Positions 21,744-40,018 of a stretch of DNA of 64,000 nucleotides are shown here, piece after piece. The DNA comes from Pseudomonadota bacterium. Lineage in GTDB: Bacteria; Pseudomonadota; Gammaproteobacteria; Steroidobacterales; Steroidobacteraceae. Numbering within the stretch: the first letter of the stretch is position 1; every line of letters starts with the position of its first letter. The notes under the pieces are model-generated. The model saw only the letters and a list, made by a program, of their open reading frames with translations. It was not told the origin of the DNA and searched no databases. The DNA lies in contig JAJYUL010000006.1 of assembly GCA_021792555.1 (NCBI GenBank), positions 1-64,000 of the forward strand, in the 5' to 3' direction. The position numbers were made by a program, and so were the translations under genes.

Positions 21744-21908
21744 TCCCCGCGCCTGTGCCCGGCGCCCCTCACTCCCCGGTGCGTCCGCAAAGGTCGGCGT
21801 TTTCGCAGCCATAAACTGAAGACACGCGGCGTTTTTTCAGTCTGCGCCTTCAATAATGCGGAACTTGCGCTTGCGCTCGGCGCACTTCGATGCGCTAGCG
21901 CATCCACG

Positions 21909-22170
21909 TTCAAGCGCGAACTCCAGATTCCTCTGCAGCACCGCAAGAGCTCTTTCCTGTTCGTCCCGCGCGGGACCGGCAAGACAACGTGGCTTACGCA
22001 AAGCGTCCGCATGCGCTGTTCGTCAACCTTCTGCGCTCGGACTGCTATCTGCCGCTCGCGGCCAACCCGGCGCATCTGCGCTCCCTCATCCCCCAACAGT
22101 CCTCCGACCGCATCGTGATCGATGAGATCCGGCGCGTCCCGGAACCGTTGAACGAAGTGCACGACATGCG
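21909..22170 (+). pseudogene. decayed 5' fragment of an AAA ATPase resembling the DUF4143 family
   Basis: FKRELQIPLQHRKSSFLFVPRGTGKTTWLTQ, then frameshift into KRPHALFVNLLRSDCYLPLAANPAHLRSLIPQQSSDRIVIDEIRRVPEPLNEVHDM; DUF4143 domain absent. Confidence 0.75.
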
Positions 22171-22274
22171 ATCGCACCGCCGGAACCCGCTGGGTCGCCC
22201 AGGCTATGGGCGGTGCAGGCGCAAGCGCCGAGCGGCGCATGGTGCGCGCCCCTCGGCGCAATCCGCTGCACTGG

Positions 22275-22847
22275 TCATGACGGGCGGGCCCCGTCGGCGG
22301 GAGCCCATCCGGCCGCGGCGGCCGCGATCACGATCCGCGCGCACGCTTCGGCATCGGATTGCGCATGGTGATGCCGCAGCGCAATCCCGAGCCTGGCGCA
22401 CACATCGGGCAGCCGGGTCGGGCGAATGTTCCAGACCTGCCGGGCGACCCGGACAGTACAGACGAATGGCCTCGTGACTGCCGGCAGGCCCGAGGCGGCG
22501 CAGCAGGCGGCAAGCACACTGCGATCGAAAGGCGCATTGTGCGCCGCCAGAAAGCGCGCACCGGCAATCCGAGCCTCGATCTTGGGCCAAAGCTCTGCGA
22601 ACGTAGGGGCAGCGCGCACATCCTCCCACGAGAGGCCATGGACACCCGTGAAAGTGAACTGCCGGCTCGCCGGTCGGATCAGATGGTAAAGGCGCTCGAC
22701 AATTTGACCCCCTGACACGATGACCACCCCTACCGCGCACGCGCTGTCGGCGCGCGGATTGGCCGTCTCGAAATCGATCGCCGCGAACCGATCACCCCTC
22801 AGCCGGGGCAAGCGCGGCGAAGAGGAAGCCTCAGGGCGAGAGATCAC
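22275..22847 (-). CDS. DEDDh 3'-5' exonuclease, DnaQ/RNase T-like (start uncertain)
   Basis: FAAIDFETAN (ExoI), LAAHNAPFDRSVL (ExoII), HHHAQSDAEACARI (ExoIII). Confidence 0.88.
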   Translation of the reverse strand: MISRPEASSSPRLPRLRGDRFAAIDFETANPRADSACAVGVVIVSGGQIVERLYHLIRPASRQFTFTGVHGLSWEDVRAAPTFAELWPKIEARIAGARFLAAHNAPFDRSVLAACCAASGLPAVTRPFVCTVRVARQVWNIRPTRLPDVCARLGIALRHHHAQSDAEACARIVIAAAAAGWAPADGARPS

Positions 22848-24732
22848 GCAGCTTCAGCAGCGGCCCGATGAACTTCTGGTAGTTCTTCCAGCGCCCGACC
22901 GAGCTCGAATACATCTTCTGGCGCACCTGCCAGTTGCTCGCCGTCAGCACCGCCCGCTCGGTTTTGTGGAACTCCAGAACCTTTGGGTCCCACTCCAGGC
23001 CAATGAACTCAATGATGCGCCGGCTCCAGCCCTCCTGGTCAGACACGAGCTCAGCATATGGCACCTCGAGAAAGACCTCCTTGGGCAGCACCGAGCGCCA
23101 GTGTTTGACGAGACGGTGATGCTCGCGGTAGTAGTGCGCGAGATCCTGCAAGTCCATTGCGAAGGAAGCGGCGTTGATGAAGTTCTGGAAATAGCAGGAC
23201 AGACAGGTATCCACCGGATCGCGCTGCATATAGATGAAGCGTGCATTCGGAAGCACCCGGTGAATGAATCCCAAATAGTCGACATTGGCCGGCGTCTTAT
23301 CAACAACCCGCGCCGCATCGGAGGAACGCCGGGCCAGCTCATTGAGATAGGACTGGGCCAATTTCGTCACGAGCCCGGAGTCCGGTACCCGTCCGCAAAC
23401 TACGTCTTGATGCTTGAATCCGAACATTCCCCAGAACTGCAACTCGCCTGCACCCATGGCCTGCGGATGAGAGGCGATGATTTGCTCCACCAGGGACGTA
23501 CCGGAGCGCATCATGCCGACGACGAACACCGGCCGCCGAGAATCATTGGCTCCCTGAACAGGCGTTCCAACACGTTCCGCCGTGTAATGACGAACGACAT
23601 CATCCACCCAGGCGGCGCGAGCCGCCCTGTCGTAGGTCATGGATACCTTCTTGCGCTGCTCGTTCGCCTTGCGAAACGCCTCGAACGCCCGCCCATAATC
23701 TCCAATGTCATCGAAATACTTACCGATGGCGAAATGGAGCCTGGACTCCTCGATCGGCGCCATCGGACGCTCAAGCAGGCGCTGCGCAGTCTCCAGCCAC
23801 CACTGGTCCGTCGGCGTCATGCGCCGCTGTTGCGCCAACCACGTGTGGGCCTCCGTGCATGCCGGATCAATATCAAGCGCTTTGCGCAACAGTGATTCCG
23901 CGTCATCGAACCGCCCTTCCATGCTCGCCATCCATGCCAGGCCGCACAGCGCGTCCGTCGAGCGCGGCTTCAGTCGCAAGGCCCTCTCGAAGCAGCTCTT
24001 GGCGTCGTCCGCCCGATCAAGGGCAGCCAGAGCGTGCCCGAGGACACAGAGCGCATTTGCACTGCGCGGCTCCAATTTAACGGCTCGACGCAATGCGGTC
24101 TCGGCCCCCGAAAAATCTCCCCGCCAGTGCAGTATGGTTCCAAGCTTCAGATTCGCATCGGCGCGCTTCGGATCAGCCTGCACGGCACGTCGATAGGCGC
24201 GCTCCGCCTCCGGGTAACGCCCGAGAAAACATAGCGCGTCGCCCAGATTGCTGAGGGCAACAACGTGATTTGCATTGGCCGACAGGATTTCCTGCAATCG
24301 CACTACAGCCTCGGCGTAATCGCCTCGGCTCGCTGCGGCGTCAGCGGCGCTGAGTGACAGATCAATCCGTCTCCGCGATCCGCCCGTGTTTCGGAATTCC
24401 ACCTGCGGGGTCGCGGTAGAGGGGATGGGGGTACCGGTCAATTGCAATAACAGAAGATGAGTCAATTCGCCGGCGCCTGCCTCGTCGAATCCCTGCTCGA
24501 TCAGCCGCCACTTGAACGCGCCCAGCAACTTCGCCCGCTTGAACAGATTGAGCTTCAGCGGCTTGGCATCGAGCGCGGCTCGCCGCAGCAAGCGTTGCAC
24601 TTCGGCTCGCCGATCACCCTCTTGGACTTTGGCACGCCCCTTGGTCGCCCGAGCGTCATCGCGCAGAAACGACTCCGCCAGCGTGTGACCGGCAGCGATC
24701 GCTTCTTGAGCATTGAACCATTCAAGAATCAT
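22831..24732 (-). CDS. TPR repeat-containing sulfotransferase
   Basis: TPR units (VVALSNLGDALCFLGRYPEAERAYRRAVQADPKRADANLKLG); PAPS loop RPVFVVGMMRSGTSLVEQIIASHP; 3'-phosphate motif RDPVDTCLSCYFQNF. Confidence 0.92.
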   Translation of the reverse strand: MILEWFNAQEAIAAGHTLAESFLRDDARATKGRAKVQEGDRRAEVQRLLRRAALDAKPLKLNLFKRAKLLGAFKWRLIEQGFDEAGAGELTHLLLLQLTGTPIPSTATPQVEFRNTGGSRRRIDLSLSAADAAASRGDYAEAVVRLQEILSANANHVVALSNLGDALCFLGRYPEAERAYRRAVQADPKRADANLKLGTILHWRGDFSGAETALRRAVKLEPRSANALCVLGHALAALDRADDAKSCFERALRLKPRSTDALCGLAWMASMEGRFDDAESLLRKALDIDPACTEAHTWLAQQRRMTPTDQWWLETAQRLLERPMAPIEESRLHFAIGKYFDDIGDYGRAFEAFRKANEQRKKVSMTYDRAARAAWVDDVVRHYTAERVGTPVQGANDSRRPVFVVGMMRSGTSLVEQIIASHPQAMGAGELQFWGMFGFKHQDVVCGRVPDSGLVTKLAQSYLNELARRSSDAARVVDKTPANVDYLGFIHRVLPNARFIYMQRDPVDTCLSCYFQNFINAASFAMDLQDLAHYYREHHRLVKHWRSVLPKEVFLEVPYAELVSDQEGWSRRIIEFIGLEWDPKVLEFHKTERAVLTASNWQVRQKMYSSSVGRWKNYQKFIGPLLKLRDLSP

Positions 24733-25370
24733 AGACTTGGCTACCGCAAACTCGACAAACTAAACCTATCCGACAAAGCCTGGGGCATGTCTAATTTATT
24801 GTAAAGTCGCGCACCGGTTCACAGTCCTCGACCCTCCCGCCGATCCGCTCAGTCCGGTTGCAGCAGTTCCCGTGCTTGATCCTGATAATGGAAGTCCCGT
24901 CCCTGCCATGGGCGGTAGACGCGCATGTGTTCGCCGGCGGAAACTCTTGCTCAGCGGTCCCGGAACGAATCGGGCGGACGGATGGGCGCTCTTCGGGCGA
25001 TTGAACCCACAGCCGTCTGGCCAGCGCCGCAGCTGGCGCGCCCAGCTCACTACCGCCAGCGTACCTCCCAACCTGCGACTGTGCTCGAATGCTGCGAATA
25101 TCGCAGGAGCCATACGCTGGGCTCCTCCGGTCGACCCAATTGCACGCGCCCGGCACATCCACGGGACACGGCCGCCCCCGTTTGCCATGTCCCCGGGCGC
25201 TTGCCGCTCACACTGCCCAGTACCGCCTGCGGAAGTCTCCCTCCGCTGGTCGGCGAGCACTATGAACCAGCCCACAGCCGTCTTGACGCACGCAGGTTAT
25301 GCTGCGTGCTCCTGAACGCCTCATCCACACGCGCGCAATACTGGCGATTTCACCGGGGGCGGGAACACGC

Positions 25371-27425
25371 ATGGTATTTTCGAAGCGATCGCATAATCCC
25401 CTTAAGCACCGCGCAAGCTCTCTCGGAGCCACCATTCACTTCGGCGTCTTCGCCCTTTTGCTCGCGGTCACCCTGCCCGTCCTGCTGGAATCCTTCTCTT
25501 CTTCCGCCGATCCGCTCGATGCTTCTTGGGCATGGTTCATGGGCTACGCCGTCGAGCATCATCTGCAGTGGGGCAAAGCGGTATTGTTCACGTACGGCCC
25601 GCTCGGATTCCTTGCTAATCCTTACTTCTATTCGGACCACTTCCTATGGTCCGTCAGCGCAACGGCGCGCCTGGCATCCTGGCTCGGATTTGGGCTCACG
25701 TTCGGCTACATCCTCTGCCGGCTCGCCGCCAACGACAGACCCTTGCCACGAGTGACGATCGCGGCTGCCCTGGCGTGGGTCTTGGGCGCCTCATTTTTAG
25801 ACTTGGCCACCCAGGCTGCATTCATCGGCATGCTGCTGCTCGTGCTTGCCATCGCTGAAGAGCGCCTCGCAGCCGCCATCGTCGCCCTGATTCTATCGGG
25901 ACCGCTCCTCGCCTTCGGCGCCCTGATCAAATCGACGGCGCTCATCATCTCGCTGTTCGCGCTTCTCATCTATCCGATCCTATGGTGCTACGCGGGCTGC
26001 GGAAACAAGCGTGTGCACTTTTCGCTCTTGCCGGTGCTGAGTTTCATCGCGACTTTCTGCGTGCTCTGGCTGGTATCCGCCCAGTCCCTCGGCAATCTCC
26101 CGGCCTATCTGCGCGGGACCTGGGCTATCGCCCACGGATACACTCCCGCCATGGCGATCAGCGGCAACCATGCACAAACACTGATTGCGTTCGTCATCTT
26201 GGCGCTGTTCTCGGCCATAGTCCTCGCACTCCTTTCCACGGGCCGCAAACGGCTCGCCGCACAAAGTCTGCTCCTTGGCGTCATGGGATTCTGGGCGTGG
26301 AAGGAAGGCTTCACGCGCCACGACCTGGGCTACGTTGGCCACCCCATGGCCTTTTATGGCACTGCACTACTCATCGCAGCTGTCGGGACGGCCTTGATGT
26401 CCATTGCGCAATTTCGACTTGCTACCGGTCTCGTATACTGCGCCTACTTGTCCGCGTTCGTGCCCGCGCTACGCGGCTTTCCGCTGTCCTCACTTAACCC
26501 GATTGGCAACTACGAGCGCTTCTTCGCCTTGATTGTGTCAAAGCCGAACAGGGCACACGAGCAGCGCCGGCAGACTGCCGCGATCCAGGCGCAATTCACC
26601 CTGCCCTCCAAAGCGCTGCAGGCAATCGGAAGCGCGCCGGTCAACGTGATTCCCTGGTCACTGATGATCGCGCAGGGCTATCACATGCGCATCGTTGCAA
26701 GTCCGGTATTCCAATCGTATTCCGCTTACACGCCCTATTTGGATCGCCTGAATGCACGGCAGATCTGGAGAGATGCCAGCGCACAAAAGATCATCTATAC
26801 GTACTCGACCATCGACGGCCGGTATCCGGCGTTTGACGAGCCTGAGACCTTCCGAGCGATCTTGAGCTGCTTCAAGACTCTATATCCCGGCAGCGCGTAC
26901 CTCGTCCTCGGGCGAACGGCGTGCATGCGGCCGCACCTGAACGCTGTCGATGCGCCGCGGGACGCTGATTTGGGCCACTGGATTGCGATTCCGCCAGGGG
27001 CGGACTACGCCAAGATCGCCGTCCGCACCACCATGATCGGTCACCTGGCGAATCTTCTGTACAAGCCCGCCTCTGTTCGCGTCTCGTTCCGCCTTGCAGA
27101 CGGAACGATGAAAGGCCCATACAGATTCATCTACCCCGTCGCTGTCGACGGACTGTTCGTGAAATATTTCATCGGAACACAAGCTGAGGCCGCACAGCTA
27201 TTTTCGGCCATCACTTCCGGCCTGCGCCGAGTTGCCGCAATCGAACTGACAACCAATCGACATACTGCCGACTACACGCACCGCTTTCGAATCCAATTCT
27301 TCCGCGCTACTGAACCGCATCAATACCCACCCAGCGCGCCTCAGCAGCCCCGCCCTGGCTCCTCGAGGAGCGCCCGTCCGGGTCGACCGCTACTTAAGAC
27401 ACCGAGTGTCCGCGGCCGTGACTGA
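25371..27425 (+). CDS. large multi-spanning membrane protein, candidate GT-C glycosyltransferase (start uncertain, 25299 or 25371)
   Basis: Many TM helices; early loop SSSADPLDASWAWFMGYAVEHHLQWGKAVLFTYGPLGFL; long C-terminal soluble region; first gene of a tightly overlapping operon with DprE/UbiA-like genes. Confidence 0.6.
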   Translation: MVFSKRSHNPLKHRASSLGATIHFGVFALLLAVTLPVLLESFSSSADPLDASWAWFMGYAVEHHLQWGKAVLFTYGPLGFLANPYFYSDHFLWSVSATARLASWLGFGLTFGYILCRLAANDRPLPRVTIAAALAWVLGASFLDLATQAAFIGMLLLVLAIAEERLAAAIVALILSGPLLAFGALIKSTALIISLFALLIYPILWCYAGCGNKRVHFSLLPVLSFIATFCVLWLVSAQSLGNLPAYLRGTWAIAHGYTPAMAISGNHAQTLIAFVILALFSAIVLALLSTGRKRLAAQSLLLGVMGFWAWKEGFTRHDLGYVGHPMAFYGTALLIAAVGTALMSIAQFRLATGLVYCAYLSAFVPALRGFPLSSLNPIGNYERFFALIVSKPNRAHEQRRQTAAIQAQFTLPSKALQAIGSAPVNVIPWSLMIAQGYHMRIVASPVFQSYSAYTPYLDRLNARQIWRDASAQKIIYTYSTIDGRYPAFDEPETFRAILSCFKTLYPGSAYLVLGRTACMRPHLNAVDAPRDADLGHWIAIPPGADYAKIAVRTTMIGHLANLLYKPASVRVSFRLADGTMKGPYRFIYPVAVDGLFVKYFIGTQAEAAQLFSAITSGLRRVAAIELTTNRHTADYTHRFRIQFFRATEPHQYPPSAPQQPRPGSSRSARPGRPLLKTPSVRGRD

Positions 27426-28359
27426 ACTCGGCAAAATTGTCATCACCGGTGGCGCCGGCCTCGTCGGGCAGAACCTCGTCGCATGTCTCGAGGACCATGC
27501 GCACCGCAATGTGGTTGTCATCGACAAGTCCCCAGCGAATCTCGCGATACTGCAGAACCTTCATCCGCAGGTATCAACAGTCTGCGCTGACTTGGCGGAG
27601 CACGGTGCCTGGGAGCAGCAGTTTGACGGCGCCGATACCGTAGTTATGCTGCAAGCCCAAATCGGCGCAACAGCTCGCGCGCCGTTCGTTCGCAATACCA
27701 TCGTCTCCACCCAGAACGTCCTCGGCGCTATCAAGTCGCGCGGCCCCGGATACTTAATTCACGTGAGCTCCTCAGTGGTGAATTCCGTCGCGAATGACCT
27801 CTATTCGACGACAAAACGAGAACAGGAGCATCTGGTGGTGCAGAGCGGCATACCGTACGTCGTGCTCCGACCCACGCTCATGTTCGGTTGGTTTGATCGC
27901 AAGCATCTGGGATGGCTTTCGCGCTTCATGCGGCGCGTTCCAGTGTTTCCGATACCAGGCGACGGCCGATATTTGCGCCAGCCTTTGTATGTGGGAGACT
28001 TCTGCCAGATAATCCTGAGTTGCCTCAAATCACGCCCAATTGCCCAGGCGTTTGACATCACGGGACGGGAACGAATCGACTACATCGACATGATCCGGGA
28101 GATCAGGAGGGCCGTCGATGCGCGCTGCGTGATTGTCAGGATTCCATATGGCCTATTCGACAATCTATTGAGACTCTGGGCAATGTTCGACAAAAATCCT
28201 CCGTTCACGACTGAGCAGCTCGCCGCCCTGGTGGCCGGGGATGTATTCGACGTCATTGACTGGGAGAGGATATTTGGCGTAAACGCGACACCGTTCACAG
28301 TCGCAATCAACCGAACTTTTCACGATCCGCGTTACAGCGACATCGCGCTCCACTTTTGA
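27406..28359 (+). CDS. NAD-dependent epimerase/dehydratase family protein
   Basis: IVITGGAGLVGQNLVACL Rossmann motif; LIHVSSSVVN..LYSTTKREQE (YxxxK); VVLRPTLMFGWFDRKHLG. Confidence 0.88.
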   Translation: MSAAVTELGKIVITGGAGLVGQNLVACLEDHAHRNVVVIDKSPANLAILQNLHPQVSTVCADLAEHGAWEQQFDGADTVVMLQAQIGATARAPFVRNTIVSTQNVLGAIKSRGPGYLIHVSSSVVNSVANDLYSTTKREQEHLVVQSGIPYVVLRPTLMFGWFDRKHLGWLSRFMRRVPVFPIPGDGRYLRQPLYVGDFCQIILSCLKSRPIAQAFDITGRERIDYIDMIREIRRAVDARCVIVRIPYGLFDNLLRLWAMFDKNPPFTTEQLAALVAGDVFDVIDWERIFGVNATPFTVAINRTFHDPRYSDIALHF

Positions 28360-29654
28360 ACACCACAGGCAGACAGACAGTGGCGGTCATCGGCGCGGGA
28401 CCGATGGGTCTCGGCGCCGCGTATCAGCTCGCGCTGGATGGCCATACGCCAGTGGTGTTCGAGGCCGACGACCGGATCGGCGGCATGGCCGCAGCGTTTG
28501 ACTTCGGCGACCTGCGAATTGAGCGGTATTACCATTTCCACTGCACATCGGACCACGATCTCTTTGCGCTGCTTCGCGAACTGGGGCTTGATGACAAGCT
28601 CCACTGGGTGGCGACCAAGATGGGCTACTACTTCAACGGCTGCGTCCAGCCGTGGGGTAATCCGCGCGCGCTCCTGGCGTTCCGCGGGCTGAGCCTCATC
28701 GACAAGGCACGATACGGCCTGCATGCGTTTTGGGCCACGAAGCGGCAGAACTGGCGGCCACTCGACCAGCTCGAGGCCACCCGCTGGATCCGCAACTGGG
28801 TGGGTTCGCGAGCCTACGACGTGCTGTGGCGCAACCTGTTCGAGTTGAAGTTCTACGAGTTCGCGCACGATCTTTCGGCAGCTTGGATCTGGAGCCGGAT
28901 CCGACGGATCGGACGGTCCCGATACAGCATCTTCAAAGAGAAACTCGGCTTCATCGACGGAGGCTCCGAGGCAGTGCTGCACGCGATGAGCGCCGAGATT
29001 GTGCGACGCAACGGGGAGATCCGCCTCTCCTGCCCCGTGCAGCGAGTGAGGTTGGACGATGGGGCGGTGTCTGGTGTCGAGACTCGAGACTTTTTTTTCC
29101 CCTGCGAGCGGGTCATCAGCACCGTACCGACGCCGTACGTGCCGAAAATTCTCCCTGATTTGCCCGCTGGGCTGCTGAATACCTACCGATCCATAAAGAG
29201 CATCGCGGTAGTGTGTGTCATTGCGAAACTGGCGCGCTCGGTGAGCGAAAATTTCTGGCTTAATGTCAATGACCCGGACATGGACGTTCCGGGGCTGGTC
29301 GAGTATTCCAATCTGCGCCCATTGGATCGACACATCATTTACGTACCCTTCTACATGCCGGGAGAGAATTCAAAGTACGGCGACCCCGACTCCGTCTTTG
29401 CGGAAAAGGTGAAGCGCTATCTTAGGCGGATCAATCCGGAGCTGCGCGAAGACGACATCCTTGACATCCACGTCAGTCGCTATCGGTTTGCCCAGCCGGT
29501 GTGCACACCCGGCTTTGCCGATCGCCTGCCCCCCGTGAAGCTCCCCATTCGCGGCCTGTTTGTGGCCGACACATCCTTTTACTATCCGGAGGACCGCGGG
29601 ATATCCGAGAGCATCGGCCTGGCGCGCAGAATTGCGCGGATGGCGGTCGAGTGA
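28356..29654 (+). CDS. FAD/NAD(P)-dependent oxidoreductase (amine oxidase / UDP-galactopyranose mutase-like fold), TTG start overlapping previous stop
   Basis: VAVIGAGPMGLGAAYQLALDGHTPVVFEADDRIGGMAAAFDF; C-terminal GLFVADTSFYYPEDRGISESIGLARRIA. Confidence 0.85.
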   Translation: MNTTGRQTVAVIGAGPMGLGAAYQLALDGHTPVVFEADDRIGGMAAAFDFGDLRIERYYHFHCTSDHDLFALLRELGLDDKLHWVATKMGYYFNGCVQPWGNPRALLAFRGLSLIDKARYGLHAFWATKRQNWRPLDQLEATRWIRNWVGSRAYDVLWRNLFELKFYEFAHDLSAAWIWSRIRRIGRSRYSIFKEKLGFIDGGSEAVLHAMSAEIVRRNGEIRLSCPVQRVRLDDGAVSGVETRDFFFPCERVISTVPTPYVPKILPDLPAGLLNTYRSIKSIAVVCVIAKLARSVSENFWLNVNDPDMDVPGLVEYSNLRPLDRHIIYVPFYMPGENSKYGDPDSVFAEKVKRYLRRINPELREDDILDIHVSRYRFAQPVCTPGFADRLPPVKLPIRGLFVADTSFYYPEDRGISESIGLARRIARMAVE

Positions 29655-30049
29655 AAACACTCGTGTCGCGACAATTCATGCGTTTTCTGCTTGTCGGCGG
29701 CATCGCTGCAGCAGTCAACGTCCTCAGCCGCATCGTCTACGGTGCGTGGGTCGGCTATTCGATCTCGATCATCCTTGCGTATGTAACCGGAATGATGGCT
29801 GCCTTTTTCATGGCGCGCCGCTTCGTTTTCCCACCGGGAAGGAACAGCGCACACCGCTCCGCTGTTGTCTTCACACTGGTTAACATCGTCGCGCTGCTGC
29901 AGACCTGGGTGGTCAGTGTGACGCTAGCGGACCACGTCTTCCCCACTTTGGGGATACGGCAGCACTCCGAGACGATGGCACACATCATCGGCGTTGGCGT
30001 CCCGGCCTTCACCAGCTACATTGGACACCGAGAATGGTCATTCCGATGA
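29651..30049 (+). CDS. GtrA family membrane protein (first copy)
   Basis: FMRFLLVGGIAAAVNVLSRIVY..AYVTGMMAAFFMARRFVFPPG..VPAFTSYIGHREWSFR; GTGA overlap with previous gene. Confidence 0.85.
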   Translation: MKTLVSRQFMRFLLVGGIAAAVNVLSRIVYGAWVGYSISIILAYVTGMMAAFFMARRFVFPPGRNSAHRSAVVFTLVNIVALLQTWVVSVTLADHVFPTLGIRQHSETMAHIIGVGVPAFTSYIGHREWSFR

Positions 30050-31497: not shown

Positions 31498-31501
31498 CGC
31501 G

Positions 31502-32827
31502 ATGCCCCAGGGACAAACTCGGCTCGTCCGTTCATGGGGCAACGTAGCCCGAGGTGAGCACTCGGTCTATAGCTTGGGCAGCCGCTTCGATGAGTTCCCT
31601 CGCCTACCGGCACAAACCAGCATCCTGCCCTTTGGCAATGGACGGAGCTACGGCGACAGCTGTCTGAACGTGGGAGGCGCGCTGCTTGACATGCGCTCCC
31701 TGGACCGCTTCATCCAGTTCGATGCGCGACACGGCACGCTGCGTTGCGAAGCAGGGGTACAGCTCGGGGAAATTCTACGCATCGTGGCGCCGGCGGGTTG
31801 GCTGCCATGCGTTCTCCCGGGAACACAATACGTCACAGTCGGTGGCGCCATTGCGAACGATGTGCATGGCAAGAATCATCATCGTGCGGGGAGTTTTGGC
31901 TGTCACGTGACTCAGTTTGAATTGCTGCGGTCGAACGGGGAGCGGCTGTTGTGTTCGCCGCAGATGAACCCGGACTGGTTCGCTGCCACAATTGGCGGCC
32001 TGGGCCTCACTGGCGTGGTGACGTGGGCGGAGCTGCAGTTAACCAGAGTATCTGGGCCCTGGATGTCAGTAGAGTCCGTCCGTTGCCGCGATCTGAGCGA
32101 GCTGCTGGAGATGAGCCGCGCGGCTTCGCAAGAGCACGCTTACACGGTTGCCTGGGTGGACTGCGCCGCGCGCCGCAAGCGAATTGGCAGAGGCATCCTG
32201 CAGTGGGCCGATTCCGCAGACGAAGTCGGTGAAACGCCCCCCGCGGATCGATGGTGCCGACTTGCCGTGCCATTCACGCCCCCCATTTCGCTGCTCAATT
32301 CGGCCACAATGCACGTATTCAATGCATTGCACTACAGGCGTCACGGGGGACGGGTCCGGTCGATGCAGCACTATCGACAGTTTTTCTTCCCGCTCGACGG
32401 CATACGCCATTGGAACCGCCTGTATGGGCCTCGTGGGTTCTATCAGTACCAGTGCGTCGTTCCCGCAGACGGGGCCGACGCTTCGATTCGACGACTACTG
32501 CGCGCCATAGCGGCAAGTAGCGAGGACTCCTGCCTTGCAGTCCTGAAGTATTTCGGTGACAGCGTTTCGCCGGGGCTATTGTCGTTTCCTCGCTGTGGCG
32601 TCACTCTGGCGCTGGATTTCCCCAACCGAGGCGCACGGCTGGAGTCGCTTTTTGCACGGCTCGATGCGATCGTTGCCGACGCCGGCGGCTGCCTCTATCC
32701 GGCAAAGGATGCGCGAATGCCCCCAAGCCTGTTCCGTGCTGGCTTTCCGCAGTGCGAGACGTTCTCGCGCTTTATCGACGCACGCTGCTCATCGAGCTTC
32801 TGGCGACGCGTCATGGCGGAAGCATGA
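31502..32827 (+). CDS. FAD-binding oxidoreductase, DprE1-like (decaprenylphosphoryl-beta-D-ribose 2'-oxidase)
   Basis: PFGNGRSYGDSCLNVGG; GGAIANDVHGKNHHRAGSFGCHVTQFELL; LYPAKDARM near C-terminus, matching DprE1 HGKNHHSAGSFG and LYTAKDSR motifs. Confidence 0.9.
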   Translation: MPQGQTRLVRSWGNVARGEHSVYSLGSRFDEFPRLPAQTSILPFGNGRSYGDSCLNVGGALLDMRSLDRFIQFDARHGTLRCEAGVQLGEILRIVAPAGWLPCVLPGTQYVTVGGAIANDVHGKNHHRAGSFGCHVTQFELLRSNGERLLCSPQMNPDWFAATIGGLGLTGVVTWAELQLTRVSGPWMSVESVRCRDLSELLEMSRAASQEHAYTVAWVDCAARRKRIGRGILQWADSADEVGETPPADRWCRLAVPFTPPISLLNSATMHVFNALHYRRHGGRVRSMQHYRQFFFPLDGIRHWNRLYGPRGFYQYQCVVPADGADASIRRLLRAIAASSEDSCLAVLKYFGDSVSPGLLSFPRCGVTLALDFPNRGARLESLFARLDAIVADAGGCLYPAKDARMPPSLFRAGFPQCETFSRFIDARCSSSFWRRVMAEA

Positions 32828-33561
32828 AGAAGGTGCTCATCATCGGAGCGACCTCGGCGATCGCTGAGGAAACTGCCCGGCTCTTCGCGCAACGCCTGGC
32901 ATCGCTCTATCTGGTCGCCCGAAACGAGCGCCGTGTGGCGGCGATTGCCTCCGATCTGGGAATCCGCGGCGCCACTCAGGTGGCCTACGAGACACTGGAT
33001 GTGAATGATTTCGCCTCCCACGCCGCCATGCTGGATCGCGCCACTGAAGCTCTGGGGAAGTTAGATGTCGTGCTCATCGCGCACGGCACGCTCGACAATC
33101 AGCGCGCATGCGAGGAGTCCGTGGATCTGACAATGCGCGCGCTATCCACCAATGCGCTCTCGGTCATCGCTTTGTGCACGCAAATTGCGCCGCGTCTTTC
33201 CGCGCAAGGCAGTGGCACATTGGCGGTGATCTCTTCTGTGGCAGGCGACCGGGGCAAACGGAGCAACTATGTCTATGGGAGCGCCAAGGCACTGGTCAGT
33301 ACATATCTGTCCGGACTGAGGCAGCGGCTCTACTCGGCCGGCGTGCAGGTGTTGACGATCAAGCCTGGATTAGTGGATACACCGATGACGGCGTCCTTTC
33401 CCAAAGGCCCCCTTTGGTCCACTCCGCGGCGAGTGGCGGCCGGCATTTTACGGGCAATCGATAAGAAGCGCGATGTGGCATATTTGCCACGCGCCTGGGG
33501 CCCTGCCATGTGGTTCATCCGACTGATTCCGGAAAAGGTGTTCAAGCGACTCGAACTCTAA
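32824..33561 (+). CDS. SDR family oxidoreductase, DprE2-like (decaprenylphosphoryl-2-keto-ribose reductase)
   Basis: KKVLIIGATSAIAEETARLFAQR; VISSVAGDRGKRSNYVYGSAKALVSTYLSGLRQRL; TIKPGLVDTPMT; ATGA overlap with the DprE1-like gene. Confidence 0.88.
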   Translation: MKKVLIIGATSAIAEETARLFAQRLASLYLVARNERRVAAIASDLGIRGATQVAYETLDVNDFASHAAMLDRATEALGKLDVVLIAHGTLDNQRACEESVDLTMRALSTNALSVIALCTQIAPRLSAQGSGTLAVISSVAGDRGKRSNYVYGSAKALVSTYLSGLRQRLYSAGVQVLTIKPGLVDTPMTASFPKGPLWSTPRRVAAGILRAIDKKRDVAYLPRAWGPAMWFIRLIPEKVFKRLEL

Positions 33562-33576
33562 TGGACCCGTCGGCCC

Positions 33577-34026
33577 ATGCAACGAGACATATCGATCCAT
33601 AAAGAGCAAAAGGGCGTCTGGCGCGTGCGAATTGCACAACTGTTGCGCTTTGGCGCCGTCGGCGTTACTTGCCTCGGGCTGAGCGCAGCGGTACTGGTTG
33701 GACTTCACGCGTTCGCGGGACTGAACTATCTGCTCGCTTACGCGGCGTCCTTCGTCACCGGGAACATCGCGGGCTATCTGCTCAACGCACGCTTTACGTT
33801 TTCCGTCCGCGCCGTCAGTCACCTAGGTGCCGCGCGCTATATGCTTGTCAACGCGACGCTGCTTGGAGTAAACACGTGCGCACTGGACTTTCTCGTCGAG
33901 CGGATGCACATGTGGTACCTCGCCGCGGCAGTCCTCCTCGGCGTGCTCAATACGCCAGTAAGTTTCCTAGCGCAGCGGTTCGTAACCTATCGAACGAGTG
34001 TGCGCCGCGGCGCGCAGAACATTTAG
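33577..34026 (+). CDS. GtrA family membrane protein (second copy)
   Basis: LLRFGAVGVTCLGLSAAVLVGLHAFAGLNYLLAYAASFVTGNIAGYLLNARFTFS; C-terminal AQRFVTYRT. Confidence 0.83.
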   Translation: MQRDISIHKEQKGVWRVRIAQLLRFGAVGVTCLGLSAAVLVGLHAFAGLNYLLAYAASFVTGNIAGYLLNARFTFSVRAVSHLGAARYMLVNATLLGVNTCALDFLVERMHMWYLAAAVLLGVLNTPVSFLAQRFVTYRTSVRRGAQNI

Positions 34027-34111
34027 CCAGCATGCTCAACAGGCAATGCCGAAACACCGCGGCAACTGCTGCCCGGGACACGCAGCGGGGACTGACCGCC
34101 GAGGCGGACGC

Positions 34112-34675
34112 GTGACGGGCTATGATGAGTATTTTGATTATCTGATGCGACGCAAGCGCGCCGCCGTCTGGTATCGACGTGTCTGGCTGTACCCTAGAAT
34201 CTGCCGGAATTTGAGTGGCACGGTACTCGACATCGGTTGCGGCATCGGCGACATGGTACGGTATCGCCGCAACACGGTCGGCGTTGACGTGAATCCCCAT
34301 GCCGTCGCCTTCTGCCGGGAGCAGGGTCTAAAGGTACAACTGATGCAGCTCGATCACCTGCCGTTCGAGGGCTGCGAGTTCGACGGGGCGGTACTCGATA
34401 ACGTTCTCGAGCACCTAGAGCACCCTGAGCCGTTGCTAGCGGAAGTCCACCGGGTGCTCAAGGCGCACAGCCATTTCGTGGTGGGGGTCCCTGGCGACCG
34501 CGGATTTCGCAGCGACGCCGATCACAAGCGCCACTATCCCGAAGCCGAGTTAGCCCGTACGGTCCAGAACGCCGGGTTCAAACTGGCTCGCATGTTCCAT
34601 CAGCCGTTTCGTTCACACCTGCTCGACCGCCATTTCCGCTATTACGCGATTTACGGTCTTTTCGTGAGGATTTGA
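34112..34675 (+). CDS. class I SAM-dependent methyltransferase (GTG start)
   Basis: GTVLDIGCGIGDMVRY; DGAVLDNVLEHLEHPEPLLAEVHRVLKAHSHFVVGVPG. Confidence 0.88.
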   Translation: MTGYDEYFDYLMRRKRAAVWYRRVWLYPRICRNLSGTVLDIGCGIGDMVRYRRNTVGVDVNPHAVAFCREQGLKVQLMQLDHLPFEGCEFDGAVLDNVLEHLEHPEPLLAEVHRVLKAHSHFVVGVPGDRGFRSDADHKRHYPEAELARTVQNAGFKLARMFHQPFRSHLLDRHFRYYAIYGLFVRI

Positions 34676-34755
34676 CCGTTACTGGCAGCACGAGGGGCGC
34701 ATCAGTTTTCATCGGCCCGTCCTGCGCCCTGGAAACCGGCTTCTCCGCTCTTTCG

Positions 34756-35739
34756 TCAAGGCCCTACGCGCGAGCGCGAAGTCGCGGCACCGTCCCAGAA
34801 GACCTTGGTCATGCTGAGCCGCCGGCATAATCCACGCGGTAGCCGTCTGAATTCCCGCCCCAAGCGATAGCCGATGTATTTGGCGGCGTTGCGCACCGGG
34901 CAGACTGGCAGCACCAGCGGCGCGTTGACCGCACAGTAGCGAAGTTCGGAAAAGACAAATCGTGCGCCCTCACCCTCGGCGGTGCCGAAATGGCGCAGTA
35001 ATTCAGGGAGCTGCGCGTGAAGCACGCCGAAGTCAAAATACCGCCGCACGTCCTGTGCGATAGTATAGGCATGCGAATGGCGCACCCGAGCATCCGCACA
35101 ATATCGGATCTTCCACCCCGCCAACAGCATGTTGACGGCCACACAGGTGTCCTCGCCCAGAATCAGGTGATTCGGAAAACCTCCGCACGCCGCGAGCGCA
35201 CTGAGGCGATAGGCGGCGAATGAATTCGAGAGATACGCGGTCTTTATGCCGAGACGGGGCGCGTCTTCGATGGAACGCGTTTCACTTCGGACGCCGTAAT
35301 TGAAGAGAATAACGTGGGCCTCGAACGGTCCGGCGCCATCCTGCGGCACTTGCCGTCCGTAGGCAGCTCCGATCGCGGGATCCGAAAATGCGCCGATCAG
35401 TGCCGCAATCGACTGCGGACCCTCTAGCACGGCGTCCTGCGTCAGAAATACGACGTACTCCATTGCCGCGCAGAACTGTTCAATAGCCCACTGTCGGGTT
35501 CCCCCGTGGTTGAAGGAGTGCGACTCGATCCTCTGCAGTTCAAAGCCGCTTTCTTTCGCAACGCTATCGCTACCGTCTGTCGAGCCAGAGTCGACGACGA
35601 GCACGGACGCGGGATCCGCAAACGACGCTCTGATGGCTCGCGCCGCCTCGCGCCACCGATCACCCCCATTGAACACTGGCACAATGAGCCGAGTTCGACT
35701 CAAGGCGAACAGTTCGGCGCGCGGAGCCACCTCGCTCAT
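34756..35739 (-). CDS. glycosyltransferase family 2, rhamnosyltransferase-like
   Basis: IVPVFNGGDRWREAARAI; VLVVDSGSTDGSDSVA; HSFNHGGTRQWAIE; LGEDTCVAVNMLLAGWKIRYCADARVRHSHAYT. Confidence 0.88.
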   Translation of the reverse strand: MSEVAPRAELFALSRTRLIVPVFNGGDRWREAARAIRASFADPASVLVVDSGSTDGSDSVAKESGFELQRIESHSFNHGGTRQWAIEQFCAAMEYVVFLTQDAVLEGPQSIAALIGAFSDPAIGAAYGRQVPQDGAGPFEAHVILFNYGVRSETRSIEDAPRLGIKTAYLSNSFAAYRLSALAACGGFPNHLILGEDTCVAVNMLLAGWKIRYCADARVRHSHAYTIAQDVRRYFDFGVLHAQLPELLRHFGTAEGEGARFVFSELRYCAVNAPLVLPVCPVRNAAKYIGYRLGREFRRLPRGLCRRLSMTKVFWDGAATSRSRVGP

Positions 35740-37808
35740 TGCGGCAATACCTTTAGAAATCCTGGCCCCTGCCACCCGCAGGCAACGTGCGGCCGCGTAC
35801 TTGCCCACATCTGTTCTGATCCGGCATCCTCCTCTCGTCCGCCGGGCTCAAGCTTGACAAACCGAATCACGCCGCGCGCGATCCAGGCATGCACCGCTGA
35901 GCCTGTATATTTTCTCAGGAACTCATAACCGCTCTTTGCATCACCCAACAGAGTATCGACCGGGCGTCGTGGCTGAAAGAGCGCAGGACACGCGTCTTCG
36001 AGGTGATCAAACGCAGCATCTGCGGTGCGTTGCCCAGGTAGCGGATACATACTCGCGGGATTGCGGATCACGCGGCACGTCATCAGATACTTGGTTTCCC
36101 GACGCCCTTTCGACGTGAGCGCTCCATCTCGCACCGGATACCCAACCATAAAGATAACATCGACACCACGCGCAACAATGATTGAGCAGTGTTTCGTGTC
36201 TGCTTTCAATCCGAAAGGCTCCAGCGCGTCATTCGCTGGGTCAAAAAATGATGGCCGCGCCTGGGTGGCTATAGTATCACTGGGATCGGACCAGACCGCG
36301 CGCAGGCGAGGCGCATAGCGTCGGATCAGGGCTTCGACGTGCCGCCCGTTCGCCCCCCTTGGGCCAAGCTCATACTGACCGCTGAGATTGACGAAACCGG
36401 ATGAGTGAGCAAGAGACGGGATGATGAACGAGTTGGTCTGGCCGCCGATCAGGAAGTACAGGTCAGTCTCCGATTTGAGCCGGGGAGGCACCGAAACCGT
36501 GAACCAAGGGCCGTCGTGCCACGGCAGGTATTGTCGATATTCAGTCCCCGCATACAGCTGGAAGAACTGTACGGCGAACACCGCGACGAGCACGCCGTTG
36601 CGCAGTGCCGGCTGGTCAGAAAGGAGGCGAAAGATAAGCGCCATGCACAAGACCGCTGCAACGCACGCCATGGGCATGAAGTAGCGGCTGTTTCCCGAGA
36701 CGGGCAGCCAGAGCGCCCAGTCAACCATAAACGCCAGTCCCAATGCGCCCAATGCGCGTTCCGCTGAATCCAGCGTGCGTGATTCCGGACCACGCGCCCC
36801 GGACAACCAGCGCCACAGCCACCGCGATAGCAGGAGCAGCGAGAGCACGAGAAGAAGCGCATAGCGCAAATCCGGCGCCGGCATCTCGAAATGGATCCAG
36901 GGAATCGGCAGAACCATCGTAAACGGCCGCAGGAGGGCCGCGCCGAGGGTGGCAGGGATGAAGCGATGGTCCAGCATCGACCCGGTCGAGTAATCCGGTG
37001 AGCGAAACAATCCGTTCAGGAGTGGGAACACCGGGTTGCCGAAGTGCCGCTCGAGGTGAATCGACCACGGGAGGTTGATCAGCACGAACCCGGCCGCGAG
37101 CGTCAGCCCGAACAGAGCACCGTATCGGATCCGCCGGATCCAGCCTCCCGGAACGAATAGCAGTAGAATCGCCGCGGAGACGGCGTGCACCGCATTGGTC
37201 GGCTTCAGTCCAGTGGCTACACCCAGCATGAGCGCCGCCCCGATGACGCGCAGTGTACTAGGCGTCCACACGACATCGACAAGCAGCAACCAACCGACCA
37301 TCGCCAGTTCCGCCGTGGTGACATCCGAGTAGCTCGAACCAAACTCATTAATGAGAACTGGGTTGGCGAATGCGAATATGACCGCGAGAATCGCGATCGT
37401 CACGCGCGCGTTCGGCGTGTCCTGCGGAACCACCCGCAGGGCCAGCTCGTAGGTCAACCACAGAATCGCGCTCTGAACGAGCGCCAGGATCGACGCGATT
37501 GCCAGCGGTGGAAGCCCAGAGCGCAACAGCAGATAGAAGGGAACGTAGGCATAGGGATTGAAGTAGCCTTGCGGCCCCGCGGCAAAGTAGTCCTGACGGA
37601 ATCGGTCATGGAGCGCGCTGAAGCCCGCATACACGTGGTACTCCATGTCGTCCCACGTCATCGCCTTGCCGAGGTGATAGCTCGTAAGCACCACCAGAAG
37701 GGAGCAGGACAGGTAGACGAGCCAGCGCGGCACGCGGGCCACGCGGTTCAGCAGGAGCATCATCGAGGTTCGCAGCGGCGAGTGCGCCGGTCCGTCAGCG
37801 GGCGTCAC
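35736..37808 (-). CDS. multi-spanning membrane protein, candidate GT-C glycosyltransferase
   Basis: TWDDMEYHVYAGFSALHDRFRQDYFAAGPQGYFNPYAYVPFYLLL acidic first-loop motif; many TM helices; ATGA overlaps on both sides with glycosyltransferase genes. Confidence 0.65.
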   Translation of the reverse strand: MTPADGPAHSPLRTSMMLLLNRVARVPRWLVYLSCSLLVVLTSYHLGKAMTWDDMEYHVYAGFSALHDRFRQDYFAAGPQGYFNPYAYVPFYLLLRSGLPPLAIASILALVQSAILWLTYELALRVVPQDTPNARVTIAILAVIFAFANPVLINEFGSSYSDVTTAELAMVGWLLLVDVVWTPSTLRVIGAALMLGVATGLKPTNAVHAVSAAILLLFVPGGWIRRIRYGALFGLTLAAGFVLINLPWSIHLERHFGNPVFPLLNGLFRSPDYSTGSMLDHRFIPATLGAALLRPFTMVLPIPWIHFEMPAPDLRYALLLVLSLLLLSRWLWRWLSGARGPESRTLDSAERALGALGLAFMVDWALWLPVSGNSRYFMPMACVAAVLCMALIFRLLSDQPALRNGVLVAVFAVQFFQLYAGTEYRQYLPWHDGPWFTVSVPPRLKSETDLYFLIGGQTNSFIIPSLAHSSGFVNLSGQYELGPRGANGRHVEALIRRYAPRLRAVWSDPSDTIATQARPSFFDPANDALEPFGLKADTKHCSIIVARGVDVIFMVGYPVRDGALTSKGRRETKYLMTCRVIRNPASMYPLPGQRTADAAFDHLEDACPALFQPRRPVDTLLGDAKSGYEFLRKYTGSAVHAWIARGVIRFVKLEPGGREEDAGSEQMWASTRPHVACGWQGPGFLKVLPQ

Positions 37809-39025
37809 TTGCCGGCAGTCTCGTCGGGATGGACGTCAATCAGTCCAAGCAAAAACGATGCGAATAGAATCTCGCCGCCCGAAAGCATCAGCGTCACCGA
37901 AGTGATGACCGCGCGCATGGCCTCCAGTGGACCCATCGGACCGAATCGCGCGCGAAACCACGTATCGAGCGAATAGACCGCAAGGGCGAGGCCCGTCAGG
38001 CCGAGGGTGACACCAAGGAGAACGCCACGCTCAATGGTGAAGACCCGCAGAAACGCCCGCAGCTTCGGAGTCATGGGCAGCAACCCCTTCAAGACACCGA
38101 CCGTGCGCCCGATGACCGAGAACAGCACCAGCTGTAGGCCCAGAATGGTCGCGCCGGCCGCGTACAGCATCGTGTGGATGTCAAATCCGACGCCGTGAAT
38201 GATCACTGGACCCCGGGAAATCAGCAGCCCGGCCGCGCTGCCCACCGCAATCAGAAGAGTGCCCGGATAGAACAGCAGCCAGCGCGGGCTCATCATGAGC
38301 AGGAAGCGCAGATGCCGCCAGCCGTCGCGCCAGCTGCGCAGATGCGGCGGGCGTGAACGACCCGCTGGCGAGAGAACGGTCGGAACTTCTCCGATCCTCC
38401 AGCCCGCGAGCACCGCCTTCACGATCATCTCGCTGGCAAATTCCATCCCGGGAGCACGCAGCCCCAGGCGAAGCGCAGCGGCGCGGTTGACGCCACGCAG
38501 CCCACAATGAAAGTCACCGATGCGGCAGGAGAAAAAAAGCCTGCCGATGAAGCTCAGAAGCGGGTTGCCGATGTACCGGTGCAGCCAGGGCATAGCGCCC
38601 GGGCGGATACCGCCCCGGAATCGATGCCCGATGACCATGTCGTGTCCGCCGCGCAATGCTGCGAGAAAGCCGTCGAGCTGCGAGAAGTCGTAGCTGTCGT
38701 CGGCGTCGGCCATGACCACGAACCGACCCTGAGCTGCCTCAAGCCCCCCCAGCAAAGCGCTGCCGTAGCCCTTTGTGGAAACCGCCACGACACGCGCACC
38801 GGCCTGCCGTGCAAGCTCCGGGGAGCCATCGGTGGATCCGTTGTCAGCGACCAGAACCTCGCCCGCGACACCGGTACGCTGCAGAAAGCCGCGGGCCTTT
38901 TGCACGCATGTCGCTACGGTCTCGGCCTCATTGAGGCATGGCATGAGGATCGTCAGCTCGAGTAGACGCGGCGGGAGCGCATCGCGGGTCTCCGCTCTCA
39001 CAGGCATCGTGACAACCGCAGCCAT
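37805..39025 (-). CDS. glycosyltransferase family 2, DPM1-like polyprenyl-phosphate sugar synthase with C-terminal TM segments
   Basis: LTILMPCLNEAETVATCVQKARGFL; VLVADNGSTDGSPELARQAGARVV; VMADADDSYDFSQL; C-terminal hydrophobic segments. Confidence 0.88.
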   Translation of the reverse strand: MAAVVTMPVRAETRDALPPRLLELTILMPCLNEAETVATCVQKARGFLQRTGVAGEVLVADNGSTDGSPELARQAGARVVAVSTKGYGSALLGGLEAAQGRFVVMADADDSYDFSQLDGFLAALRGGHDMVIGHRFRGGIRPGAMPWLHRYIGNPLLSFIGRLFFSCRIGDFHCGLRGVNRAAALRLGLRAPGMEFASEMIVKAVLAGWRIGEVPTVLSPAGRSRPPHLRSWRDGWRHLRFLLMMSPRWLLFYPGTLLIAVGSAAGLLISRGPVIIHGVGFDIHTMLYAAGATILGLQLVLFSVIGRTVGVLKGLLPMTPKLRAFLRVFTIERGVLLGVTLGLTGLALAVYSLDTWFRARFGPMGPLEAMRAVITSVTLMLSGGEILFASFLLGLIDVHPDETAGK

Positions 39026-39210
39026 CGTCGATCCTCCACGCGAACAGCATCAACTGCGATACGCTCGCGCTGCAACAATCTAGAGTGCGCGCGGCCTGCT
39101 ACCGCGGCAGATACAGTGATAAATCATTCTCGCCTTGCATGACCCGATGCAGGCGTGACTGGTTCGTCAGATTCTTTCCGAAGCGAATCGACCGTCACTC
39201 GGGACTGCAG

Positions 39211-39252
39211 CTGTGACGCAGCCGCCTCGATCATGTGACGTTTTGCGTCACA
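39211..39252. promoter_or_regulatory. TGTGACG repeat cluster upstream of pilA, candidate regulator-binding site
   Basis: ctgtgacgca (39211-39220) plus inverted repeat TGTGACG (39234-39240) TTTTG CGTCACA (39246-39252). Confidence 0.5.
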
Positions 39253-39367
39253 TTCTGACACTCATCAGTCCCAGCACCGTCAATCGAGAGAATCGTGTTT
39301 GACATAGGCGGGCCGCGGCCAGAATAAACTCATTTGAAAAACAATACATTACGACCGATTCGGGTCT

Positions 39368-39385
39368 TTGGCACGGCGCTTGCTT
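39368..39385 (+). promoter_or_regulatory. sigma-54 (-24/-12) promoter of pilA
   Basis: TTGGCACGGCGCTTGCTT matches TGGCAC-N5-TTGC, ~70 nt upstream of pilA ATG; PilR/PilS encoded in the same window. Confidence 0.9.
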
Positions 39386-39454
39386 CAGAAAGCCCAGCAG
39401 GCGCCCTTTGCGCCTCCCGGCAAGAACAATCACCGTTCCTTGAGGAGTTTCGTA

Positions 39455-39961
39455 ATGAAATCGTTGCAAAAGGGCTTCACGCTGATCGAGTTGATGATCG
39501 TGATCGCGATCATCGGCATCCTGGCGGCCATCGCCATTCCCGCGTACCAGAACTACACGATCCGTGCGCAGGTCTCGGAAGGGCTTTCGCTGGCAGGAGG
39601 CATCGAGACTGCGTTCGACGAATGCTACGCCAACCACGGAACGGCGGCCGGTAGCTGCGCCACCCTGAAGGACCTCGGCATTAACAGCTCCATCAGTGGC
39701 ACGTATGTCAAGAGCATGCAGTACAACGATGGGGTGATCACGGCGGTCTACGGCGGTGCCAATGCGAACTCGAACATCAGCGGTGCGCAGAACAGCATCA
39801 CGCTCGCCGCGTATCAATCGCCAAACGGCGACATCAGTTGGGTTTGCAGCGGCGCCACCGCCAACACTGCCCCCGCTGGTCTTTCGGTAGTCAAAGGCGG
39901 TGCCGCTCCGCTGGCCGGCACGATCGCGAACGATGCCTATCTCCCCAGCAGCTGCTATTGA
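39455..39961 (+). CDS. pilA: type IVa major pilin PilA
   Basis: MKSLQKG^[32 protein letters not shown] prepilin signature; C-terminal Cys pair; followed by pilBCD. Confidence 0.96.
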
Positions 39962-39987
39962 GTCTTAAGTGACGATGTACGGCGCAG

Positions 39988-40018
39988 AAGCCCCCGCCTC
40001 GCGGGGGCTTCTTCTTTT
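39988..40018 (+). terminator. Rho-independent terminator after pilA
   Basis: aagcccccgcctcgcgggggctt hairpin followed by cttctttt. Confidence 0.85.

Follow-up and report, generated by a model that had tools for sequence, protein, structure and literature searches.

In a member of the Steroidobacteraceae, what lies between pilR, a regulator gene, and pilA, which encodes the pilin, and does it act on the pilus? We analyzed a stretch of 64,000 nucleotides (the window; positions 1 to 64,000 of contig JAJYUL010000006.1, assembly GCA_021792555.1), in which the gene order is nadE, sucD, sucC, pilS, pilR, a block of glycan genes, pilA, pilB, pilC, pilD and coaE. A first-pass annotation of the window had described this sucCD, pilSR, pilABCD and coaE neighborhood with the block between pilR and pilA, and the gene calls agreed. 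The host genome (G000) is 3.51 Mb and 99% complete. The pilR-pilA interval (the slot) is probably an exchangeable pilin-modification locus of which the window carries one allele, and the data strongly suggest the pilin as the target.

Homology breaks off sharply at both ends of the variable segment, at the pilR stop (21743) on the left and at the -24 box of the pilA promoter (39368) on the right. Three features delimit the segment:

20355 to 21743, + strand: pilR, sigma-54 response regulator (Pfam), whose stop codon marks the left boundary of the variable segment
39368 to 39383, + strand: pilA sigma-54 -24/-12 promoter, the right edge of the variable segment (motif search, homology edge)
39455 to 39961, + strand: pilA, major type IV pilin and presumed acceptor (PF00114, PF07963)

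On the left, homology common to all relatives stopped at the pilR stop (21739-21764) in most of them, whatever the cargo, and on the right it restarted at 39360-39369 in most relatives, at the -24 box. A few matched further inward: the close carriers G029 and G076 at the right end, and at the left end G029 and G042. The block had been given as 21744-39454; the left edge stood, but on the right the variable segment stops at 39367, since both the promoter of pilA and its 5' leader are conserved. This promoter, kept 74-92 bp 5' of pilA in most congeners, is the only place in the window with an exact TTGGCACG-N4-TTGC. That sigma-54 also controls genes within the block was rejected, as no second site was convincing (9 loose matches vs 6.7 expected). 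A terminator follows pilA at 39986-40012, and the next gene is pilB. The earlier description of the block as AT-rich was confirmed, with a GC content of 61.1% compared to 70.1% in the left and 69.6% in the right flank, and a GC content at third codon positions of about 0.64-0.77 in block genes compared to 0.84-0.93 in flanking genes. The window has no tRNA, and none of the annotated block genes encodes an integrase or transposase (att direct repeats were no part of the search). A recent single acquisition by an integrase was rejected on these grounds, and because the block recurs with unchanged gene order in G076 and in rearranged form in G003 and G077.

Two sets of glycan genes were recognized. 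The D-arabinofuranose module comprises a phosphoribosyltransferase, DprE1, DprE2, a GtrA protein, a protein resembling glycosyltransferases of the C fold class (GT-C1), an epimerase and a flavin adenine dinucleotide (FAD) oxidase. The Gtr-type module comprises a polyprenyl-phosphate-sugar synthase of glycosyltransferase family 2 (GT2a), a second GtrA, GT-C2, another GT2 and a methyltransferase. Genes were assigned to modules because the Gtr-type set occurs without the arabinose module in other slots.

25371 to 27425, + strand: GT-C1, large multi-transmembrane, GT-C-like protein that goes with the D-arabinose module
27406 to 28359, + strand: NAD-dependent epimerase/dehydratase of the short-chain dehydrogenase/reductase (SDR) type (PF01370)
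28356 to 29654, + strand: FAD amine-oxidase-like enzyme (NCBIfam NF005560)
29651 to 30049, + strand: GtrA-1, candidate flippase of a lipid-linked sugar (PF04138)
30034 to 31497, + strand: HAD-UbiA fusion, polyprenyl-phosphate phosphoribosyltransferase with a degenerate haloacid dehalogenase (HAD) phosphatase domain (NF006088, 512 bits)
31502 to 32827, + strand: DprE1, polyprenylphosphoryl-ribose 2'-oxidase (PDB DprE1, E 2e-67)
32824 to 33561, + strand: DprE2-like SDR reductase, adjacent to DprE1 (NF053786)
33577 to 34026, + strand: GtrA-2, candidate flippase (PF04138), retained in slots without the D-arabinose module
33998 to 34675, + strand: S-adenosylmethionine methyltransferase (PF08241), true start probably near 34112
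34756 to 35739, - strand: GT2b, soluble family-2 glycosyltransferase (PF00535)
35736 to 37808, - strand: GT-C2, glycosyltransferase of the GT-C fold whose C-terminal domain is soluble (model, Foldseek)
37805 to 39025, - strand: GT2a, polyprenyl-phosphate sugar synthase, similar to dolichol-phosphate-mannose synthase, ArnC and AglJ

Profile and PDB matches bore out the DprE1, DprE2-like and UbiA-type enzymes, the two GtrA proteins, the sulfotransferase, the methyltransferase and the two GT2 enzymes named in the first-pass annotation, which had missed the SDR epimerase and the FAD amine-oxidase-like enzyme. It had also named two GT-C-like proteins. For GT-C2, a GT-C fold was shown by the structural model (predicted local distance difference test score, pLDDT, 70.6), whose top 25 PDB matches in Foldseek were all GT-C enzymes, including oligosaccharyltransferases, Pmt4, ArnT, AftA and EmbA-C, at modest query-normalized TM-scores of 0.27-0.43. 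GT-C1 was without such fold support: no match was found in Pfam or NCBIfam, its model was poor (pLDDT 41) and not used for the fold search, and the profile comparison with GT-C2 was weak (probability 14%). Weak GT-C1 homologues adjoin D-arabinose operons in L055, L063, L064, L068, L088 and L100.

In a survey of 58 genomes of the genus, the slot was empty in 12 species (pilR and pilA contiguous, pilA only), and in the other families of the order that were sampled it mostly held pilins only. The block was thus absent from 12 same-genus species and non-native in composition, rather than present at this position in all relatives with native composition. The full set was detected in four genomes, namely G000, G076 (same block, same gene order), and G003 and G077 (a rearranged version), and a partial set in G023 and G020, which have contig breaks, and in G029, whose arabinose genes are apparently deleted. 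The GT-C2 module without arabinose genes occupied the slots of G032, G036, G075 and G074. In total, GT-C2 was found in 13 genomes, at the slot in at least 11 of them; the other two copies were on contigs without pil genes. A sulfotransferase with tetratricopeptide repeats (TPR-sulfotransferase), with or without an exonuclease and other genes, was present in the slots of G008, G042, G030, G012, G078 and G014, and DnaJ-like and OsmC genes in that of G026. The slot of G002 holds a single PF00884 membrane protein (EptA/LtaS-like) directly 5' of pilA (L016:3057-4913); the superfamily is that of phosphoethanolamine/phosphoglycerol transferases, and the protein is a candidate phospho-substituent transferase for the pilin. 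ATPases of the AAA_14-DUF4143 type recur in several slots (L012, L046, L044, L129), with UvrD/PDDEXK in G012 and HATPase in G078, and some of these genes may be defence or toxin-antitoxin cargo. Separately, locus L143 (G084:C140) contains, in another order, D-arabinose genes, a pair of GT-C1-like genes and a pair of GT-C2-like genes, and no pil genes are visible there. No description of cargo between pilR and pilA was found in the open-access literature. The interval is a genus-wide cargo site that was probably filled once or twice and then underwent turnover.

On a tree of PilR and PilB, slot occupancy beyond pilA required two changes, the GT-C module five and the arabinose module four (G029 and G023 scored as carriers). 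This tree paired G076, with the full set, with G030, which has none of it, and G023, with the block, with G026, which has none, whereas PilA grouped G000, G029, G076, G023 and G014; the first four, all carriers, have one pilin type in common. Forcing these four together on PilR and PilB was rejected (log-likelihood 148 lower; approximately unbiased test, p 4e-97, or p 4e-7 when carriers were set only against the three closest non-carriers, G008, G026 and G030), with support for the PilA clade being only moderate (77/58) and the carriers known before the topology test. Given this conflict between the trees, pilA and the cargo appear to move together. The horizontal acquisition proposed in the first-pass annotation is therefore supported as exchange, but not as a one-off island, the slot being a genus-wide cargo site.

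Within the block, judging by sequence identity, GT-C2 alleles are swapped separately from the neighboring genes: between G000 and G029, GT2a is 93% identical and GT-C2 56%, and between G029 and G076, GT-C2 is 84% and PilA 90% identical. Such divergence of GT-C2 (56%) beside a conserved GT2a (93%) is what one sees with a Gtr enzyme specific for an acceptor or serotype. The slot of G030 contains a second copy of the genome's own pilR 3' end (L012:8441-8672; 97.5% over 202 bp) and that of G026 a decayed extra copy (L011:6014-6145); these are recombination footprints.

A collection scan recovered 80 DprE1 loci outside the slot, only one of which, in Lysobacter enzymogenes ATCC 29487 (L100), contained pilins. 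There the order is pilD-pilC-pilB, GT2, HAD-UbiA-DprE1-DprE2-epimerase-FAD oxidase-GtrA, a GT-C1-like gene, a TPR membrane protein and pilA copies. The association is independent, because both the place (between pilB and pilA) and the gene order differ, and no published mention of this pil-linked operon was found in the open-access literature. The D-arabinose operon of Aquabacterium parvum (L056), near pilB/pilC, was not counted as a second case, as the locus has no pilin. The triad of epimerase, FAD oxidase and GtrA accompanied the DprE genes in 22 of the 80 loci, mainly in Xanthomonadales, and is therefore part of the arabinose module. A second epimerization of the pentose is speculation; in Xanthomonas, elaborate systems have several candidate epimerases (PMC11127046).

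D-arabinose is otherwise best known from tuberculosis bacteria. The UbiA protein matched the structure of the M. tuberculosis decaprenyl-phosphate phosphoribosyltransferase (8j8j, E 1e-25), and its Asp-rich ND..D...D motif is present (NDLLDLPYDRKHPTKR aligned to NDVRDVEADREHPTKR). DprE1 retains the HGKNHH motif and YxAKD with its catalytic lysine, and has Ala at the position of the Cys that benzothiazinones target in mycobacterial DprE1. NCBIfam scores were below the curated cut-offs for both DprE1 (360 bits, cut-off 500) and DprE2 (NF053786, 169 bits, cut-off 250), and the DprE1, DprE2 and UbiA frames are open with active-site motifs kept. The predicted product of the module is polyprenyl-phosphate D-arabinofuranose.

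The fused HAD phosphatase looks catalytically dead from its sequence. In the window protein and in G076, the nucleophile motif VDLDGTL is replaced by VEAEGAL, and both catalytic Asp residues are gone; other HAD-UbiA proteins with a complete N-terminus mostly have DLDGT/SL, the domain is cut to a short remnant in G003 and G077, and DLDGAL is kept in G084. No second HAD of such type was found in the genome, which encodes five PAP2 proteins. The 5'-phosphate would therefore be removed by another enzyme, or stay. In M. tuberculosis and P. aeruginosa it is removed by a separate enzyme, and the fused phosphatase is also absent from Rv3806c and the P. aeruginosa enzyme (PMC11127046).

The left end of the block carries three more genes:

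21903 to 22165, + strand: AAA_14-DUF4143 ATPase gene, frameshifted remnant (matched in two frames by the intact G012 protein, tblastn E 5e-8; family assigned from the intact relative by Pfam)
22275 to 22847, - strand: 3'-5' exonuclease, RNase_T (PF00929, E 7e-14)
22831 to 24732, - strand: TPR-sulfotransferase (PF13469, Sulfotransfer_3)

The claim that the block consists almost entirely of sugar and lipid-carrier enzymes thus holds for all but the first 1.1 kb or so, which contains the ATPase remnant and the exonuclease. The exonuclease again adjoins the TPR-sulfotransferase in G029, G076, G030, G078, G012 and G014. The sulfotransferase domain is similar to protein-tyrosine sulfotransferase (E 2e-9) and the TPRs to those of O-GlcNAc transferase; orthologues (at least 54% identity) occur in 15 genomes of the genus and are slot-linked wherever the contig shows it. 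For a cytosolic sulfotransferase dependent on 3'-phosphoadenosine 5'-phosphosulfate, a lipid-linked sugar before flipping would be an easier substrate than a membrane-inserted pilin. No description of a pilin sulfotransferase was found in the open-access literature. Two further TPR-sulfotransferases, 46-47% identical, lie about 9-10 kb upstream of pilR (G001:C18:11748-13619 and G002:C11:18984-20864), in species without a slot sulfotransferase. Elsewhere in the window, SucD (succinyl-CoA synthetase alpha; 16182 to 17339, - strand) has a Lys/Ala/Arg/Pro-rich, histone-H1-like C-terminal tail of about 90 residues; comparable tails, though of differing sequence, are present in G078, G075, G076, G041, G081 and G073, and G082 is without one.

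We propose the following route. After phosphoribosyl transfer, a phosphatase encoded elsewhere would strip the 5'-phosphate, and DprE1 and DprE2 would epimerize the ribose to D-arabinofuranose. A GtrA protein would flip the lipid-linked arabinose, and GT-C1 would transfer it in the periplasm. With flippase, polyprenyl-phosphate sugar synthase and GT-C enzyme, all three components of Gtr-type glycosylation are present, and in a parallel route GT2a may make a second polyprenyl-phosphate sugar for flipping by the other GtrA and transfer by GT-C2. The glycan could then be extended or decorated by GT2b, the methyltransferase and the sulfotransferase. The acceptor would most likely be PilA, and the block and pilA would be replaced jointly through homologous recombination in the conserved sequences that flank them, namely pilR to the left and the pilA promoter to pilB to the right.

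The foremost alternative, which we regard as unlikely, is that the slot is a general insertion hotspot whose enzymes decorate another envelope glycan (lipopolysaccharide, exopolysaccharide, capsule) or a glycolipid, its proximity to pilA being incidental and pilA being dragged along by recombination. Several observations weigh against pilin modification, the first four of them in favor of such a hotspot. In the collection scan, 79 of the 80 DprE1 loci had no pilin nearby, which means that the pathway mostly has another purpose; unrelated genes (ATPase, UvrD-PDDEXK, HATPase and OsmC genes) occupy some slots; pilA adjoins the cargo as the next gene, and its co-movement may therefore be hitch-hiking; and O antigens are the main target of Gtr and three-component systems (PMC11127046). 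In addition, G014 has the carrier pilin type, yet its visible slot reads exonuclease-sulfotransferase-pilA; Ser/Thr enrichment of the pilin was rejected as a marker, as carriers equaled non-carriers in content; and at a contig end in G029 (L023:13993-14560), GT-C1 residues 72-167 are joined straight to DprE2 residues 149-245, apparently through the loss of some 6 kb, unless the contig was misjoined in assembly.

The hotspot is opposed by the location of GT-C2 at the slot in at least 11 of its 13 carriers, by the independent pil-linked D-arabinose operon in Lysobacter, by the chemically unrelated periplasmic transferase that adjoins pilA in G002, and by the lack of a Wzy_C ligase/polymerase in G000, G029, G023 and G076. 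For the window's host, Wzy_C (PF04932) had no match in the whole genome, with a positive E. coli control, and thus the genome has no WaaL/PglL/TfpO homologue. A mechanism based on an O-antigen ligase or TfpO was rejected for the same reason, though 29 of the 58 congeners have a Wzy_C protein. Slot-linked GT-C2, the Lysobacter operon and the missing Wzy_C strengthen the pilin-glycosylation role put forward in the first-pass annotation, with PilA as its likely target.

A wider role, in which the block would glycosylate further periplasmic and pilus-associated proteins (minor pilins, PilY1, a general O-glycoproteome) and PilA would be one target among several, is quite improbable. The large multi-enzyme set and the protein O-mannosyltransferases and oligosaccharyltransferases among the closest GT-C2 folds would suit such a breadth, but allele replacement follows the major pilin gene, and other prepilin-type genes are on other contigs. 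More improbable still is a decaying D-arabinose module, or a product that ends as a 5-phospho-sugar, owing to the dead HAD phosphatase: VEAEGAL in G000 and G076, the truncated domain in G003 and G077, the apparent deletion in G029 and the lack of another such HAD in the genome are countered by open DprE1, DprE2 and UbiA frames with active-site motifs, by Rv3806c and the P. aeruginosa enzyme, which likewise have no fused phosphatase (PMC11127046), and by the five available PAP2 proteins.

If the slot is an exchangeable pilin-modification locus, one genus naturally provides, at a single site, a series of alleles for pilin decoration, and sister species differing mainly in the cassette would let the drivers of pilus glycan diversity be compared. 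Pilus coatings can block phages, and pilus-using phages are the obvious candidate. It would also mean that a mycobacterial-type D-arabinose route is built into a pilus locus and that a protein-sulfotransferase-like enzyme takes part in pilin modification, and it would raise the question of which phosphatase serves a phosphoribosyltransferase with a dead phosphatase domain. We tentatively extend the idea to a genus-wide pilin "serotype" locus, in which D-arabinose three-component, Gtr-type GT-C, TPR-sulfotransferase and EptA/LtaS-like modules might interchange with matching pilin alleles, possibly giving a sulfated, methylated, arabinose-containing heteroglycan on the pili of the window species.

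Among known systems, the pilin of P. paraeruginosa bears D-arabinofuranose added by TfpW, with the biosynthesis genes on a separate island, and this arabinosylation protects against pilus phages (PMC12369383, PMC11841053). Like its group IV system (TfpW and the RGP80 genes), the window has UbiA, DprE1 and DprE2 homologues and a GT-C gene linked to pilA. The biosynthesis genes of P. paraeruginosa have no linkage to pilA, downstream of which there is one GT-C gene, whereas in the window the pathway, two GT-C-like enzymes, the second sugar system and the sulfotransferase are all upstream of the pilA promoter. As in the P. aeruginosa pilin/accessory cassettes (TfpO, TfpW-X, TfpY, TfpZ), accessory genes are exchanged along with the pilA allele that they adjoin; unlike in them, the cargo, up to 18 kb and varying among species of one genus, lies between pilR and pilA, upstream of the pilin gene. 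Those cassettes have an accessory gene 3' of pilA after an attenuating terminator, whereas in the window the terminator 3' of pilA is followed by pilB.

The three-component pentofuranose systems of Citrobacter youngae O1/O2 (PMC11127046) are matched in phosphoribosyltransferase, epimerase, exporter and GT-C genes and in the HAD-UbiA fusion ancestry, but in the window the HAD catalytic motif is lost and the genes are linked to pilA rather than to an O-antigen locus. In Gtr O-antigen glucosylation modules, too, the flippase and the polyprenyl-phosphate sugar synthase are conserved and the GT-C diverges fast; unlike them, the window's module has an extra GT2, a methyltransferase and a sulfotransferase and occurs in a genome without a Wzy/WaaL-type protein. 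The UbiA-DprE1-DprE2-epimerase-FAD oxidase-GtrA operons of Xanthomonadaceae have the identical gene set (22/80 loci) but lie away from pilA, except in Lysobacter enzymogenes. The window locus brings the D-arabinose pathway, the transferases and the pilin together, along with a second sugar system, and on our best reading it represents a variant both of the P. aeruginosa pilin/accessory cassettes and of the TfpW pathway.

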